Below are positions 1,923 through 38,521 of a stretch of 45,196 nucleotides of DNA, one piece after another; position 1 is the first letter of the stretch; the number at the start of each line of letters is the position of its first letter. This stretch comes from Alphaproteobacteria bacterium (lineage in GTDB: Bacteria > Pseudomonadota > Alphaproteobacteria > SMXQ01), in NCBI GenBank assembly GCA_009380075.1, contig WHSO01000023.1, positions 1-45,196 of the forward strand. The letters are read 5' to 3'. The translations under genes were made by a program, and so were the position numbers. The notes under the pieces were generated by a model. That model ran no database searches, had not been told where the DNA came from, and worked only from the letters and a program-made list of their open reading frames with translations.

Positions 1923-4604
1923 ATGCTGGACAAGACCTATCGGCCCAAAGAGGTCGAGGAAAAACATTACGCCGCGTGGGAATCGTCGGGGGCCTTTGCC
2001 TCCGATCCCGGTTCGGCGCGCCTTCCCTATACCATCATGATGCCGCCGCCCAACGTCACGGGCAGCCTGCACATGGGCCACGCGCTGACCTTCACCCTGC
2101 AGGACATCCTCACCCGCTTCATGCGCATGCAGGGTCGGGACGCCCTGTGGCAGCCGGGCACCGACCACGCCGGCATCGCTACCCAGATGGTGGTGGAGCG
2201 GCAACTCGGGGAAAAAGGCATATTCCTCGACCGCGGCCAGCAGGCTCCCCACAACCAGGCCTTGATCGGGCGCGAGGACTTCGTCGCCAGGGTCTGGGAA
2301 TGGAAGGGCGAAAGTGGGAACACGATCACCCGCCAGCTCCGCCGTCTCGGCACCTCGCCGGACTGGGCGCGCGAGCGTTTCACCCTCGATGAGGGCCTCT
2401 CTGCGGCGGTGCGCAAGGTCTTCGTCCAGCTTTACCGGGAGGGGCTGATCTACCGCGATCAGCGGCTGGTCAACTGGGACACCAGGCTGCAGACGGCGGT
2501 GAGCGACCTCGAGGTCCAGCAGGTCGAGGTCAAGGGCCGGCTATGGCACTTCAAGTACCCCGTGGAAAGCCTTGAAAATACGTACATAATGATCGCCACG
2601 ACCCGGCCGGAAACGATGCTGGGAGACAGCGGCGTCGCGGTCCATCCCGACGACGAGCGCTACCGTGCACTGGTCGGCAAACACGTGATCCTCCCCATCG
2701 TCGGGCGCCGCATTCCGATCGTTGCCGACGACTACGCCGACCCCGAAACCGGAACCGGCGCGGTCAAGATCACCCCCGCCCACGACTTCAACGACTTCGA
2801 GGTCGGCCGCCGCCACGGCCTGGCGGCCATCAACATCCTCGATTCCGAGGGCCGTCTCAACGACGCGGTTCCCGAGGGCTGGGGCGGCCTCGACCGCGAG
2901 GTCGCACGCGACCGCGTGGTGGCCGAAATGGAGCGGCTGAGGCTCCTTGACAAGGTCGAGGATCACGTCCATGCCGTGCCGCACGGCGACCGCTCCGGCA
3001 CGGTGCTGGAACCGTGGCTGACGGACCAGTGGTACGTCGACGCTGCGACCCTGGCCCGGCCCGCCATCGAGGCGGTCGAACGCGGGACGACCCGGTTCGT
3101 GCCCAGGCACTGGGAAAACACCTATTTCGAATGGATGCGCAACATCCAGCCATGGTGCATTTCGCGCCAGTTGTGGTGGGGCCACCAGATCCCGGCGTGG
3201 TACGGCCCCGACGGCCATGTCTTCGTCGCCGAGACCGAGGACGAGGCCGCCGCCGAGGCCGCCACACATTACGGCAAGGCGACGGCGCTGGCACGCGACC
3301 CGGACGTGCTCGACACCTGGTTCTCGTCGGCGCTGTGGCCGTTCTCGACCCTCGGCTGGCCCGAGCAGACGCCGTACCTCAAACGCTATTACCCGACCGA
3401 CGTGCTGGTCACCGGGTTCGATATCATCTTCTTCTGGGTCGCCCGCATGATGATGATGGGCCTGCATTTCATGGGCGACGTGCCGTTCCGCGACGTTTAC
3501 ATCCACGCCCTGGTGCGGGACGAGCGCGGCCAGAAGATGTCGAAGTCCAAGGGCAACATCATCGACCCGCTCGACCTCATCGATACCTACGGGGCTGATG
3601 CCCTGCGCTTCACCCTTGCCGCGCTGGCGGCCCAGGGACGGGACATCAAGCTGGCCGAGCCCCGGGTCGAGGGCTACCGCAACTTCGCCACCAAGCTGTG
3701 GAACGCGGCGCGCTTCGCCGAAATGAACGGCTGCGTCTGGGCGGAGGGATTCGATCCGTCCGCCAACACGCTGCAGGTCAACCGCTGGATCGTCACCGAA
3801 CTGGCGGAACGGTCGGAACAGGTTGTCCGCGCGGTGGAGGAGTACAAGTTCAACGACGCCGCCGGCGCGCTCTACCATTTCACCTGGGGCACGTTCTGCG
3901 ACTGGTACCTCGAATTCATCAAGCCGGTGCTGGCCGAAGGCGATAGCGCGGCCCAGGCCGAAACCCGTGCCACCTGCGCCTGGGTGCTGGGACAGACCCT
4001 GCACATGCTGCATCCGTTCATGCCCTTCATCACCGAGGAGCTGTGGGCGAACCTGACGACGGGGAAGGGCGGCCGGCTCATTTCCGCCGCATGGCCCGAG
4101 GTGCCCGCTGCCGCCCGCGACGCTGGCGCGCGCGACGAGATGGACTGGGTGGTGCGCCTGATTTCCGGGATTCGCGCCGTGCGGGCGGAGATGAACGTGC
4201 CCGCCGCGGCTAAGATTCCTCTCGTTGTGAAAGACGGAAGTGCGCGCACGAAAGAACGCCTGTCGAAGCATCGGACGGCGATCGAGCGGCTCGCCCGTAT
4301 CGAAGGGGTGACCGAACTGTCCGGCCCCGTTCCCAAGGGCGCGGTCTCCAGCGTGCTCGACGAGGCGACACTGATCCTGCCGCTCACGGGGATCGTCGAC
4401 CTCGAGGCGGAAAAGGTCCGGCTCGCGAGGGAGATCGCCAAGGCCGACAGCGAAATCGGCAAGATCGAGAAGAAGCTCGGCAATCCCGGCTTCCTCGCCA
4501 AGGCGCCCGAAGAGGTGGTGGAAGAGAACCGCGAGCGCATGGACGAATACGCCGCCCAGAAGCAGAAACTGTCCGAGGCCCTGGCGCGGCTGGCCGACGC
4601 CTGA
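1923..4604 (+). CDS. valS: Valyl-tRNA synthetase
   Basis: 893-residue class Ia aminoacyl-tRNA synthetase that charges tRNA-Val in the cytoplasm. The HIGH-type signature is HMGH at residues 50-53 inside [15 protein letters not shown]. The KMSKS loop is at 538-542. Between them lies the CP1 editing domain, which hydrolyses mischarged Thr-tRNA ([11 protein letters not shown] motif near residue 225). The C-terminal 65 residues form the coiled-coil tRNA-binding arm ([20 protein letters not shown]). Length is close to the family norm for alphaproteobacteria. The ATG at 1923 opens directly on the conserved [13 protein letters not shown] motif. A short AT-rich run of uncommon codons occurs at 2571-2591, just before the editing-domain motif. 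Confidence 0.98.
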
Positions 4605-30687: not shown

Positions 30688-31572
30688 TTAACGGCCGCCG
30701 ATGTCGAGGGGCCGGCCCAGGCGTCCCGCCACGTCCTGGATGTACTGCCAGGCGACACGGCCGGAACGCGCTCCGCGGGTGACGGACCATTCCACCGCCC
30801 CAGCGCGAAGCTCTTCTATTCTTATCTTTAGCTTAAAGTACTTTGCATAAGTCTCTATAATATTGAAGAAAATATCCTGATCACAGGCGTGGAATCCGAG
30901 CCAAAGCCCGAACCGGTCCGAAAGCGATACCTTTTCCTCGACTGCTTCGGCGGGGTTGATCGCGGTGGAGCGCTCGTTCTCGATCATGTCGCGCGGCATC
31001 AGGTCGCGGCGGTTCGAAGTGGCGTAGAACAGGACGTTATCGGGGCGCCCCTCGATCCCGCCTTCGAGCAACGCCTTGAGCGACTTGAAGGTGGCGTCCT
31101 GGCCGTCGAAGGACAGATCGTCGCAGAACACGAGTGTACGGCGTCCGGCCTCGCGCAGCACGGCGAGCAGGCCGGGCAGGGCGGAAATGTCCACGCGATG
31201 GATTTCCACCAGGGCAAGACGGCCGGACTCCCTGACCCGGCCGAGGCGGTCGTTGACGGCGGCATGGACCGCCTTGACCAGCGACGACTTTCCCATGCCG
31301 CGCGCGCCCCACAGAAGCGCATTGTTGGCGGGCAGGCCGCGGGCGAAACGACGCGTGTTTTCGAACAGCAGGTCGCGTTGTTGATCGATCCCCTTGAGCA
31401 GTTCAAGCGGCAGCCGGTTGACCCGCGTGACCGGCTGCAGCCGCCCACTTTCCGCATGCCAGACGAAGGCGTCCGCGCCGGTGAGTGGCGCCGGCGCCGG
31501 TGCCGGCCGGGCGGTAGTTTCGAGCGCCTCCGCGATGCGGGTAAGGAGGGCCTTGAATTCGCTGTCGTCCAT
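30688..31572 (-). CDS. ATP-binding protein, DUF815 (AAA-type)
   Basis: 294 residues. The P-loop GARGMGKSSLVKAV lies at about residues 89-102, with Walker B-like LVFCDDLSF and sensor-like ATSNRRDLMPR. DUF815 proteins are AAA-fold ATPases of unknown role, often next to yajC-secDF as here. The start at 31572 (MDDSEFKALLTRIAEALE) fits the domain best; an in-frame ATG at 31656 would add 28 basic residues. Convergent with nlpD, with 29 bp between stops, and divergent from yajC. The C-terminal third includes an AT-rich island (about 30815-30880) with codons such as ATA, AGA and CTA that contrast with the rest. Confidence 0.88.
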   Translation of the reverse strand: MDDSEFKALLTRIAEALETTARPAPAPAPLTGADAFVWHAESGRLQPVTRVNRLPLELLKGIDQQRDLLFENTRRFARGLPANNALLWGARGMGKSSLVKAVHAAVNDRLGRVRESGRLALVEIHRVDISALPGLLAVLREAGRRTLVFCDDLSFDGQDATFKSLKALLEGGIEGRPDNVLFYATSNRRDLMPRDMIENERSTAINPAEAVEEKVSLSDRFGLWLGFHACDQDIFFNIIETYAKYFKLKIRIEELRAGAVEWSVTRGARSGRVAWQYIQDVAGRLGRPLDIGGR

Positions 31573-32176: not shown

Positions 32177-33778
<1,602 letters not shown>

Positions 33779-33802
33779 GCGGGTCGAAAGGCATATCCAC
33801 CC

Positions 33803-34750
33803 ATGGCCTGGCTCCCGATCAAGCTCGTCCCGGACACCACGAGGTTCGACTTCGTGCGCTGGCGCAGGTTCTGGTTCTTCGTGACGGCGGGCTATGTCGC
33901 CCTCTCGCTCGGGTTCGTCGCCTTCCATGGCCTCAACCTCGGCATCGACTTCAAGGGCGGCATCCTGATGGAGGTCAAGACCAAGGGCCCGGCCGATATC
34001 GATACCATGCGCGGCAAGCTCGGCGGCCTCGGTCTCGGCGAGGTCGCGTTGCAGGGGTTCGGCGCGCCCGATGACGTGCTGATCCGCGTTCAGCGCCAGG
34101 AAGGCGGCGAAGCGGCCCAGCAGGCGGCGGTGGAAAAGGTCAAGGGAGCTCTGACCGACAACGTGGAGACCTATCGCCGGACCGAATTCGTCGGCCCCAA
34201 GGTCGGCGGCGAGTTGATCCGGGGCGGCATCATTGCCGTTATTGCATCGGTGCTGGCGATCGCCGCCTATGTGTGGTTCCGGTTCGAATGGCAGTTCGCC
34301 GTCGGCGCCATCGTCGCGCTTGCCCACGACGTGATCGGCACCTTCGGCCTGTTCTCCATCACCGGGCTCGAATTCAACCTGTCCTCGGTGGCGGCGATCC
34401 TGACCATCGCCGGATATTCCATCAACGACACGGTGGTGATTTTCGACCGCGTGCGCGAGAACCTGCGCAAGTATAAGTCGATGGACATCAAGGAGCTGAT
34501 CAACCTTTCGGTCAACGAGACCCTGGCGCGCACCATCATGACCTCTATGACGACGTTTCTCGCGGTGCTGGCGATCTTCCTGTTCGGCGGTCCGGTCATC
34601 CAGGGATTCAGCGCCGCCATGATCTTCGGTATCATCATCGGCACCTATTCGACGGTCTACGTGGCGTCGTCCATTCTCATCTACCTCAGCATCCGGGAAA
34701 GCATCTCGAGCGGCCAGGTCGGCGGCGCGACCGCCGCAAAGAAAGACTGA
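33803..34750 (+). CDS. secF: Protein translocase subunit SecF
   Basis: 315 residues, six membrane helices. The first helix FWFFVTAGYVALSLGFVAFH is followed by the SecF motif LGIDFKGGILMEVKT. The C-terminal half carries the YSINDTVVIFDRVRENLRKY block and the last helices. Works as a 1:1 complex with SecD. The next gene (Mth938/NDUFAF3-like) starts 29 bp downstream, the usual alphaproteobacterial arrangement. Confidence 0.97.
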   Translation: MAWLPIKLVPDTTRFDFVRWRRFWFFVTAGYVALSLGFVAFHGLNLGIDFKGGILMEVKTKGPADIDTMRGKLGGLGLGEVALQGFGAPDDVLIRVQRQEGGEAAQQAAVEKVKGALTDNVETYRRTEFVGPKVGGELIRGGIIAVIASVLAIAAYVWFRFEWQFAVGAIVALAHDVIGTFGLFSITGLEFNLSSVAAILTIAGYSINDTVVIFDRVRENLRKYKSMDIKELINLSVNETLARTIMTSMTTFLAVLAIFLFGGPVIQGFSAAMIFGIIIGTYSTVYVASSILIYLSIRESISSGQVGGATAAKKD

Positions 34751-34779
34751 CGCCGCACAGCACGCCAAAAGGGGACATC

Positions 34780-35157
34780 ATGGACCTGACCCGCGTGCCC
34801 CATGAAAGCCTCCCCAGCATCCGCGCCTATGGTGGCGGCGGCTTCCGCATTGCCGGCGCGCATTATACGAGTGCCGTACTGGTGCATCCGGGCGGCATCT
34901 GCCCGCTCGGCCTGGTCGACATGGTGGGCTTCGGCGCCGCCTTCGCCCGGGAGATCGCCGACCTCGCTCCGCGCCCGGACCTGCTTCTCGTCGGCACCGG
35001 CGAAACCATCGAGCCGCTCGCCGACGACGCCCTGGGCGTTCTCCGTGCCGCGGCCATCGCGGTCGAGACGATGGCGACCGGCCCCGCCTGCCGTACCTTC
35101 AACGTCCTGCTGGGGGAGGGACGGCGGGTTGCCGCCGTCCTGTTTCCGGTCGCCTGA
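34780..35157 (+). CDS. Mth938/NDUFAF3-like domain protein
   Basis: 125 residues, a single Mth938-type domain (about 8-123). The conserved core reads RPDLLLVGTGETIEPL, and the end is the characteristic CRTFNVLLGEGRRVAAVLFPV. The mitochondrial homologue NDUFAF3 is a complex I assembly factor, and bacterial relatives are known to lie beside secDF. That makes a role in assembly of a membrane respiratory complex plausible here; this is inference. A strong hairpin terminator follows at 35191-35212. Confidence 0.88.
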   Translation: MDLTRVPHESLPSIRAYGGGGFRIAGAHYTSAVLVHPGGICPLGLVDMVGFGAAFAREIADLAPRPDLLLVGTGETIEPLADDALGVLRAAAIAVETMATGPACRTFNVLLGEGRRVAAVLFPVA

Positions 35158-35190
35158 GCGAGTCGCCCACGACCGGTATCAAACGCAAAC

Positions 35191-35212
35191 GGGGCGTCCC
35201 GAAGGACGCCCC
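35191..35212 (-). terminator. Hairpin terminator between convergent genes
   Basis: Perfect 9-bp stem GGGGCGTCC (35191-35199) with GGACGCCCC (35204-35212). On the minus strand the loop is the stable TTCG tetraloop and is followed by GTTTGCGTTT, a moderately T-rich tail. It lies 30 bp past the stop of the PuuD-like gene and 33 bp past the stop of the NDUFAF3-like gene, so it probably serves both directions, better on the minus strand. Confidence 0.8.
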
Positions 35213-35242
35213 GCGCAACGTGGATGCGACTGTCAGGCGACG

Positions 35243-35752
35243 CTAGAACAGGTGCGGTCCCGCGACCATGGAGTAGGACATCGGGATCGACAGCATCGTG
35301 TTGGTGCGCGAGAACAGCATCGCCGTACGCGCCGATTTCGGCTTCTGGTCCGCCGGGCAATCGACGAGGCCAAGCGCCCGCTGCTGGTTCGGCCAGATCA
35401 CGAACCAGACGTTGAAGGCCATGATGAGGCCGAACCACATGCCGAAGCCGATCATCATCATCTTGGCGCCGCTGCCCTCAAGGCCGAGAGACAGCGCCTG
35501 GCCGATCCAGCCGAGCTGCCACGCCTGGATCAGCCCGAAGACGATGGTTGCCAGTGCCGCCCAGCGGAACCAGAAGAGAGCCGCCGGCGCGATCACCTTG
35601 CTGATCGCCGGCTTCTGCTCATCCGGGATTTTTCCCATGTTGGGAATCTGGACGAAGTTGAAGTACCACAGAAGGCCGATCCACATGATTCCGCTGACGA
35701 TGTGGAGCCAGCGGACCAGGAAGATCGCATAAGGATCCATTGCAAAGCCCAT
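35243..35752 (-). CDS. PuuD-like (DUF989) membrane protein without cytochrome domain
   Basis: 169 residues, four hydrophobic helices: about 8-32 (FLVRWLHIVSGIMWIGLLWYF), 50-75, 95-125 (MMMIGFGMWFGLIMAFNVWF) and a weak one near 145-165. It resembles the membrane part of urate hydroxylase PuuD, but is far shorter than full PuuD and has no CxxCH cytochrome c domain. H17 in WLHIVSG is a candidate haem ligand. Urate oxidation is therefore doubtful; a haem-binding membrane subunit is all that can be said. The start at 35752 has GAGGGGG 6-12 bases upstream. A 30-codon gene ends 16 bp before it on the same strand. Confidence 0.82.
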   Translation of the reverse strand: MGFAMDPYAIFLVRWLHIVSGIMWIGLLWYFNFVQIPNMGKIPDEQKPAISKVIAPAALFWFRWAALATIVFGLIQAWQLGWIGQALSLGLEGSGAKMMMIGFGMWFGLIMAFNVWFVIWPNQQRALGLVDCPADQKPKSARTAMLFSRTNTMLSIPMSYSMVAGPHLF

Positions 35753-35768
35753 TGTTTCCCCCTCTCAG

Positions 35769-35861
35769 CTAGAATGAATATCTGACGATCAAGGCCATCA
35801 CGATGGTGATGGCGATGCCCAGCAGAATGGTGTTCTGCAAACTCTCCAGAGGATTTTTCAT
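35769..35861 (-). CDS. 30-residue single-pass membrane protein
   Basis: Reading the minus strand from ATG 35861 to TAG gives 30 residues. A short polar start (MKNPLESLQN) is followed by the hydrophobic helix TILLGIAITIVMALIV (residues 11-26) and ends RYSF. GGGGAG lies 5-10 bases before the ATG, a strong ribosome site. The stop is 16 bp before the start of the PuuD-like gene, which has its own GAGGGGG, so the two look like one operon. Layout and composition resemble accessory small subunits of respiratory membrane complexes, but I do not recognise the family. No database comparison was possible. Confidence 0.65.
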   Translation of the reverse strand: MKNPLESLQNTILLGIAITIVMALIVRYSF

Positions 35862-36184
35862 TCCGCTCCCCTTCGCTGTATCGTTGACTTAGTATGATGC
35901 TGCTTCCCAGCCGCTATATATAGCAGATTTACCCACTGCGCAACTTGGCCATCCGGCCGACGCCGTTCCCCGGCCGAAACATCATCGCAAACTCGATCCC
36001 GCAATGCCTTCAGGACGGGCGCGCACCGGGCGTGACCTCGCGCGGGCCGCATGCGGAAGCGGTTGCCGCGACCGGGGCGTTTGCGCACAATCGAAGCGAT
36101 GAAGCAATCCGGGGGCGACGATGCCGGCAGTCGCGCCACGCGCATTCGACATGCAGCCGGGCGCCACGTATGAGGGGGAAAAGC
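35862..36184. other. Divergent intergenic region, small-membrane-protein operon and mscL
   Basis: 323 bp with no convincing gene. An AT-rich patch at 35880-35930 contains the perfect 12-bp palindrome GCTATATATAGC (35913-35924). It is 52 bases before the small-protein ATG on the minus strand, a position suited to a -10 element or an operator. Plus-strand frames open here in front of mscL, but they lack coding character and mscL has its own start signal. I see nothing else. Confidence 0.5.
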
Positions 36185-36616
36185 ATGCTTAAGGAATTCA
36201 AGGACTTCGCGATGCGCGGCAATGTCATCGACATGGCCGTCGGTATCATCATCGGAGCCGCATTCGGAAAGATCGTCGCATCCTTCGTCAAGGACATCAT
36301 CATGCCACCCATCGGACTGATGCTGGGCGGCGTGGATTTCTCCAGCCTGTTCGTCAACCTTTCAGGCAAGACCTACGCGACGCTTGCCGAGGCCGAGAAG
36401 GCGGGCGCGCCGACGTTGAACTACGGCCTGTTCATCAACACCGTCATCGACTTCGTGATCATTGCCTTCGCCATATTCATCGTGATCAAGCAGATGAACC
36501 GGCTCAAGAAGGCGCCGCCGCCGGCCGATCCGACCGAAAAGGATTGTCCCTATTGCCTGTCGAAGATTCCGATCAAGGCGACGAAATGCGCCCATTGCAC
36601 GTCTGAGGTCACCTAG
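36185..36616 (+). CDS. mscL: Large-conductance mechanosensitive channel with C-terminal zinc ribbon
   Basis: 143 residues. The N-terminal [20 protein letters not shown] segment is followed by TM1 ([20 protein letters not shown]), TM2 ([20 protein letters not shown], about 80-99) and the cytoplasmic helix start [12 protein letters not shown], all MscL hallmarks. The pore opens under membrane tension to release osmolytes. After the usual C-terminus a short zinc-ribbon-like end with CPYC (about 121-124) and CAHC (about 136-139) is added. ATG 36185 has GGGGG 8-12 bases upstream. A longer in-frame opening to 35945 is not protein-like. Confidence 0.95.
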
Positions 36617-37594: not shown

Positions 37595-38521
37595 ATGGAC
37601 ACGAACAGCACGCAAACCCAAACCGGCCGCAGCGGCGACGATGGCACCGTTGCCGTCGCCGCCTGTGCCGACACGGCGCGCGACCTCGACCGCGAACGCT
37701 GGCTCGCCGGCGCGCTGGCGCCGCGGAAGGCCCGCGACGACCTCGCCGTGCTGCTCGCCTTCAACGCCGAAGTGGCGAGGACGCGGGACGTGGTGTCGGA
37801 GGCGATCCTCGGCCGCATTCGGCTGGAATGGTGGCGGGATACGATCAGGACCGCGGCTGCGGCGAAGTCTGATCACACGCCGGACGACCCCGCGGTCGCG
37901 GCGGTGCTCGCCCATCCGGTGGCCGGCGGGTTGGCCCGGTTGCTGGGCCGGGGCGCGCTCGTGCCAGCACAACTCATCGCGCTGGTGGACGCGCGCGAAG
38001 CGGAACTCGACGACGCCGGTCCCGGCGATGTCGACGATTTCCTCGCCCGCATCGATGCCACGGCCGGCGCCCTCAACCGCGCGGCACTCCGGATTCTGGG
38101 CGTCGATACCGAGCCGGCGCGCGAGGCCTCCGATCACGCCGCCCGCGCCTATGGCATCGCCGGCCAGATGCGCGCCACCGCCATCAATGCCGCCCGCGGG
38201 CGGGTCGCCCTGCCACACGATCTGCTCGCCGCTCACGACGTGCCGGTATCGGCGCTGCGGGCGGGCAGCCCTCCACCGGGATTGGCGGCGGTGGCGCGGG
38301 AACTGGCCGGGCGGGCGCGCCGTCACCTCGTCGCGGCACGGAGCTTGCACCGCGAGGTCCCGGCGGCGGCACTGCCGGTGCTGGTCACCGTGCGATTCGC
38401 CCGCGGCCATCTTGCGCGCCTCGCGCACGTGGATTTCGACCTGTTTTCGAACCGGCTCGAACCCGCGCCGCTCGCGGCACCATTGGCCGTGCTGGGTACG
38501 ATGCTGACGGGCCGGTATTAG
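37595..38521 (+). CDS. Squalene/phytoene synthase-family protein, NDUFAF6-like
   Basis: 308 residues. The start of the domain, DRERWLAGALAPRKARDDLAVLLAFNAEVARTRDVVSEA (about residues 28-66, broken here only by normal family variation), and LGRIRLEWWRDTI are typical of alphaproteobacterial homologues of NDUFAF6, a mitochondrial complex I assembly factor. The second Asp-rich motif of true synthases is replaced by AYGIAGQMRATAINAARG, so prenyl-diphosphate condensation is unlikely. Relatives usually lie right after secDF and the NDUFAF3-like gene; here several genes intervene. ATG 37595 is the first start after the divergent gap, though no strong ribosome site precedes it. Confidence 0.8.
   Translation: MDTNSTQTQTGRSGDDGTVAVAACADTARDLDRERWLAGALAPRKARDDLAVLLAFNAEVARTRDVVSEAILGRIRLEWWRDTIRTAAAAKSDHTPDDPAVAAVLAHPVAGGLARLLGRGALVPAQLIALVDAREAELDDAGPGDVDDFLARIDATAGALNRAALRILGVDTEPAREASDHAARAYGIAGQMRATAINAARGRVALPHDLLAAHDVPVSALRAGSPPPGLAAVARELAGRARRHLVAARSLHREVPAAALPVLVTVRFARGHLARLAHVDFDLFSNRLEPAPLAAPLAVLGTMLTGRY

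Follow-up and report, generated by a model that had tools for sequence, protein, structure and literature searches.

A widespread, uncatalogued family of single-helix membrane proteins carrying the motif K-x-P-x-[D/E]-S appears in two deep paralog groups to have been, ancestrally, a separate partner of the DUF989 core and to have been fused to it several times, and the five-helix unit formed by helix and core would be an uncharacterised enzyme of the membrane that roughly four in ten of the Alphaproteobacteria sampled possess; we put the probability of this reading as a whole at about 0.55. Its member in the window (the whole stretch of DNA analysed here, 45,196 nucleotides) is a 30-residue peptide that is very probably a single-helix subunit of the short DUF989 protein encoded just downstream, packing in trans on the four-helix core of that protein (Table 1).

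Table 1. Features of the small gene, its partner and their flanks in the window.
Feature	Position	Strand	Basis
Probable promoter -10 region, GCTATATATAGC	35913..35924	minus	AT-rich stretch conserved in relatives; with TTGCGC at 35943-35938, 17-nt spacer
Ribosome-binding site of the small ORF, AGGGGAGC	35865..35872	minus	Sequence; GGGGAG directly 5' of the ATG
30-aa single-helix small protein, MKNPLESLQNTILLGIAITIVMALIVRYSF	35769..35861	minus	ATG to TAG ORF; conserved frame and start, purifying selection, homology to fused N-terminal helix
Intergenic gap of 16 nt with ribosome-binding site of the second gene, CTGAGAGGGGGAAACA	35753..35768	minus	Sequence
Short DUF989 (PF06181 Urate_ox_N) membrane protein, 169 aa, four-helix core	35243..35752	minus	Pfam E 1.3e-11; AlphaFold2; class-wide relatives
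Probable intrinsic terminator behind the pair, TTCG loop on an 11-pair stem	35189..35214	minus	1 found, 0.6 expected in shuffles

The small ORF starts with an ATG at 35861 and ends after 30 codons with a TAG at 35771-35769, and the ribosome site of the partner, AGAGGGGG, lies inside the gap between the genes, ahead of the partner ATG at 35752. The GGGGAG site, the ATG and the stop 16 bp before the next gene, all named in a preliminary description of this DNA, are present, on the minus strand, which that description had left unstated; the single hydrophobic helix that it reported is there as well, with a measured length of about 15 residues (I12-V26) instead of about 16. In most split relatives, that is, those in which the helix is encoded separately, the ATG follows a purine-rich site; some low-GC ones are exceptions. 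The 30-aa peptide matched no curated Pfam or NCBIfam model up to E 10, its split-form relatives gave weak chance-level matches at most, and no description of the small gene was found in the open-access literature.

The peptide is encoded upstream of the same gene in 11 of the 11 genomes of the window's family, with start, length, frame and ribosome site recurring in every one. Between the window and six family relatives, the synonymous difference pS was 0.38-0.74 and the nonsynonymous difference pN 0.03-0.06, showing that the small ORF is under purifying selection. The preliminary description had proposed both comparisons, of frame and start and of synonymous and non-synonymous change, as checks, and both bear out its view of an uncatalogued but real small membrane protein. 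All 40 distinct split ORFs start with ATG and nearly all encode 26-34 residues; the split small proteins of two loci, L119 and L080, are longer (73 and 54 residues, respectively), with a long C-terminal tail rich in Ala, Pro, Thr and Glu.

The strongest evidence for a subunit comes from proteins in which the helix is not separate. A profile of the small protein matched the in-frame N-terminus of longer short-DUF989 proteins in other lineages, and after iteration of the profile a helix homologue was found directly before the core in 140 of 141 short-DUF989 loci, 88 times as an in-frame N-terminal segment and 52 times as a separate small ORF just upstream; this count includes some places fetched twice and, among the split loci, one (L054) that is probably a frameshift. 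Strong relatives of the core occur in 125 of the 289 genomes sampled across the class (126 copies), and 30 of these copies, in 17 family codes, are split while 96 have the fused length, a count made by hand by comparing open frames of core and helix matches and checked on the DNA for the fetched loci. In a phylum-wide sample the helix was again mostly in frame with the core. A helix-like match in one genome (G278) lies about 10 kb away from the core and was taken as chance. Conservation falls on the same positions whether the helix is separate or fused (L5, S7, L8, T11, G15 and a small residue at 19), and a test for conservation along one helical face was no more than suggestive in each set (p ~0.1). 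It is thus clear from these alignments that the separate small ORF and the N-terminal helix found in fused proteins are homologous, and because that helix is built into the neighbouring membrane protein in most relatives, the small ORF very likely encodes a genuine small subunit and is not a chance reading frame. The accessory-subunit role suggested earlier is likewise well supported by the comparison.

Two readings would deny the peptide a role of its own. The split could be a frameshift, an assembly error or the pseudogene remnant of a once fused gene, and one case, L054, a SAR11 contig with overlapping reading frames, does look like this and was left out. Among 43 distinct split stretches, however, the gaps between small ORF and core (mostly 3-33 nt) and the frame relations (19, 16 and 8 over the three frames) vary and most of the gaps hold a ribosome site, so that the split state is neither an assembly error nor a programmed frameshift, and for the window the explanation is refuted because all 11 genomes of the family have the same arrangement while their gaps, stops and ribosome sites are distinct; we leave it next to no probability. 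The other reading takes the short ORF, lying as it does immediately 5' of a gene, for a leader peptide or a translational-coupling element whose product itself has no function, but its amino acids are conserved while synonymous sites have strongly diverged, the homologous sequence is part of a larger protein in the fused relatives, and gap and frame vary freely, unlike in coupled overlaps, all of which makes this reading very improbable.

The partner had been described as a truncated PuuD-like protein, a label we do not retain: the 169-aa product is an intact short four-helix member of DUF989 with relatives of similar length. It scored 44.9 bits against PF06181 Urate_ox_N, above the Pfam gathering score of 26.9, and the family was matched by 48 of 48 aligned members. 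The AlphaFold2 monomer model of the window core has four long helices (pLDDT 90), compared with the eight transmembrane helices of PuuD, and the protein ends after the fourth core helix without the C-terminal cytochrome c domain with its CXXCH. One histidine alone is invariant in the core. A short four-helix DUF989 group is noted in the accessible text of Doniselli 2015 (PMC4562309), where its helices are said to correspond to PuuD helices I, II, V and VI.

The AlphaFold2 monomer model of a natural fused relative is a confident five-helix protein (pLDDT 92, pTM 0.83) in which helix 1 spans residues 8-30. In the split form, both genes would be carried on one transcript and translated from separate ribosome sites, the small helix and the core would insert into the membrane separately, and the small helix would then pack in trans on the four helices of the core, so that the two chains together form the five-helix unit which in most relatives is a single polypeptide. 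The separate helix would thereby supply in trans what the fused version supplies in cis, and may be needed for the stability or correct insertion of the core, whose first helix would be N-outside. Since helix I of PuuD is predicted to be N-outside in the accessible text of PMC4562309, the small helix should by homology run from inside to outside.

Which of the two states came first is a separate matter. On the tree of the cores the state has to change about ten times, two or three of these changes being forced by well-supported branches, and a single split clade within the orthologs was not rejected (AU p 0.199), so that repeated conversion there rests on the preference of the tree and on retention of the motif. 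Split orthologs show the motif K-x-P-x-[D/E]-S strongly (P4 in 81%, E or D at position 6 in 91%) and fused orthologs weakly (P4 in 9%), and it is common to the split orthologs (MKNPLES) and the split deep paralogs (MKLPHDS, MKTPLDS). A motif shared by the split forms of both deep paralogs but missing from most fused forms makes it probable that the gene was separate at first and fused later, a polarity that depends on a short motif, the tree by itself not deciding it. Four fused proteins (L128, L131, L149 and L236) keep the motif in whole or in part and look like recent fusions. The opposite history, in which the same subunit descends from an ancestral fused gene that was split at least once between helix 1 and the core, would fit the fused forms being the majority and occurring in other classes of the phylum, as well as the single split clade that the test did not reject; it is harder to reconcile with a motif common to split orthologs and deep paralogs yet absent from most fused forms, and with the four fused proteins that retain it, as expected of recent fusions, and we regard it as rather unlikely.

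Ancestral separation, our preferred polarity, draws on a deep paralog group that is about 32-40% identical to the window core and sits in pqqADE-puuD-serC clusters, the pqq genes being confirmed in part of these loci. Seven of its loci encode the helix, with K-L-P-H-D-S or K-T-P-L-D-S, as a separate ORF, one has it fused to the core, and one (L116) has no such helix. In L115, at 3859-3963 (+), corresponding to 31067-31171 of the Acidibrevibacterium plasmid NZ_CP029178.1, the small ORF MLPHDSLVGTLLAGVVLTMVLAVVAHVLASSSGL lies between pqqE and the PuuD-like gene of such a cluster. This ORF is homologous to the small protein of the window and is not in the gene table used for that plasmid, a table known to be incomplete. 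On the minus strand of L146 (G026:C90:5500-13500), a second, shorter helix copy, MKTPLDSVAGTVLCGLALTALLVVV, was seen beside an acyl-CoA-dehydrogenase-like gene; it adjoins an intact helix copy in a pqqE-puuD-serC cluster and looks like a partial duplication of the helix.

As to what the five-helix unit does, kinship with the membrane domain of PuuD hints at a redox or haem-related role in the membrane, which we offer as a tentative guess. That the pair oxidises urate as PuuD does is suggested by the match of the core to PF06181, but the partner has no cytochrome c domain, and the accessible text of Doniselli 2015 (PMC4562309) gives short DUF989 genes as lacking cytochrome c and having a gene context different from that of PuuD. 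Moreover, a search of the genome of the window, which is 97.4% complete, found neither of the families that act next in the urate pathway, hydroxyisourate hydrolase (PF00576) and OHCU decarboxylase (PF09349), while the controls were positive; urate oxidation by the pair is therefore unlikely, and we give it only a very small chance. An identity with the protoporphyrinogen oxidase HemJ (PF03653) was also rejected: the core has no Pfam match to it, the genome has a distinct HemJ gene, and comparison of the core with the HemJ profile gave an insignificant 20-column match around one shared histidine. Single-sequence and profile searches of the PDB gave no sequence match. The best Foldseek match had an E of 0.6, and the matches from VIA-align, at Z 10-12.7, were b-type cytochromes and de novo bundles, values not informative for helical bundles; in the comparison with the cytochrome b6 / b561 fold, the best natural membrane matches (Z 10.0-11.8) also lay below the informative level. 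The haem or respiratory module raised in the preliminary description is conjectural, given a fold similarity no closer than that between helical bundles and the one invariant histidine of the core. A PHROGs match at E 0.15 was taken as chance.

The flanking signals in the preliminary description hold up in part. The AT-rich palindrome upstream is present, but the window contains 24 perfect 12-bp palindromes, so that GCTATATATAGC is not special as a palindrome. tgctatatatag is conserved at the same distance in L083, L084 and L086, and more weakly in L085, L087 and L089; because the outer symmetry is lost in these relatives while the stretch itself is kept, GCTATATATAGC is better read as a promoter -10 region, and probably is one, although a consensus scan did not report a promoter there. 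An operator was rejected, the AT-rich core being kept in relatives and the symmetry not. The TTCG-loop hairpin downstream of the pair is likewise real, but as a terminator it is weak by itself, since shuffled sequences give 0.6 such sites. Rfam had no match near the pair.

Of 81 loci, 66 have a secD/secF-like cluster in the neighbourhood, mostly on the opposite strand, and in the window the translations downstream of the pair, on the other strand, read as a Mth938-like gene and secD-secF. The pair is flanked, at 32177-35157 (+) and about 37600-38518 (+), by genes for SecD, SecF, a Mth938 protein (NDUFAF3-like) and a squalene/phytoene-synthase-like protein (NDUFAF6-like). NDUFAF3 and NDUFAF6 are complex I assembly factors. 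A gene for the mechanosensitive channel MscL lies upstream of the pair and divergent from it (36185-36616, +).

If the subunit reading is right, a membrane protein common in Alphaproteobacteria has a likely subunit that gene catalogues overlook, and a short DUF989 core expressed alone from a species with the split form is probably an incomplete protein. The split and fused forms that occur in nature would make a clean system in which to study why such a helix stays separate or gets fused. The partner belongs to the short DUF989 group of Doniselli 2015 (PMC4562309), whose accessible text does not describe the extra N-terminal helix or a separate gene for it. Clusters of the pqqAED-puuD-serC-pyrD type, which have been described in Hyphomicrobium and for which a role in oxygen-independent PQQ synthesis has been proposed (PMC12423496), resemble the window in having a core paralog and, as found here, the same helix as an unlisted small ORF, but differ in neighbourhood and proposed role, the window copy lying beside secDF; the separate helix would add a missing part to the related pqqADE-puuD-serC clusters.

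With one membrane-spanning helix encoded beside its partner, the peptide fits the type of single-helix small subunit known from subunit IIa and CydX. CydX of cytochrome bd oxidase, as presented in the accessible text of PMC6005532, is likewise a small hydrophobic single-helix component of a membrane enzyme, but its function is experimentally established, and we claim no sequence relation to it. Another parallel is subunit IIa of the ba3-type cytochrome oxidases (CbaD/CoxIIa; PMC3128077), a single-helix peptide of 34-41 residues that is often unannotated, is encoded just upstream of its partner and is believed to take the place of a helix that other versions of that partner contain; it belongs to another protein family and has been shown experimentally. 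The authors of that work saw no sequence similarity between subunit IIa and the fused helix, whereas the separate and fused helices compared here are clearly homologous. Judged by its alignments, the family described here is a new one among the single-helix subunits encoded beside their partners, in which separate and fused forms both exist and their homology is clearly recognisable.
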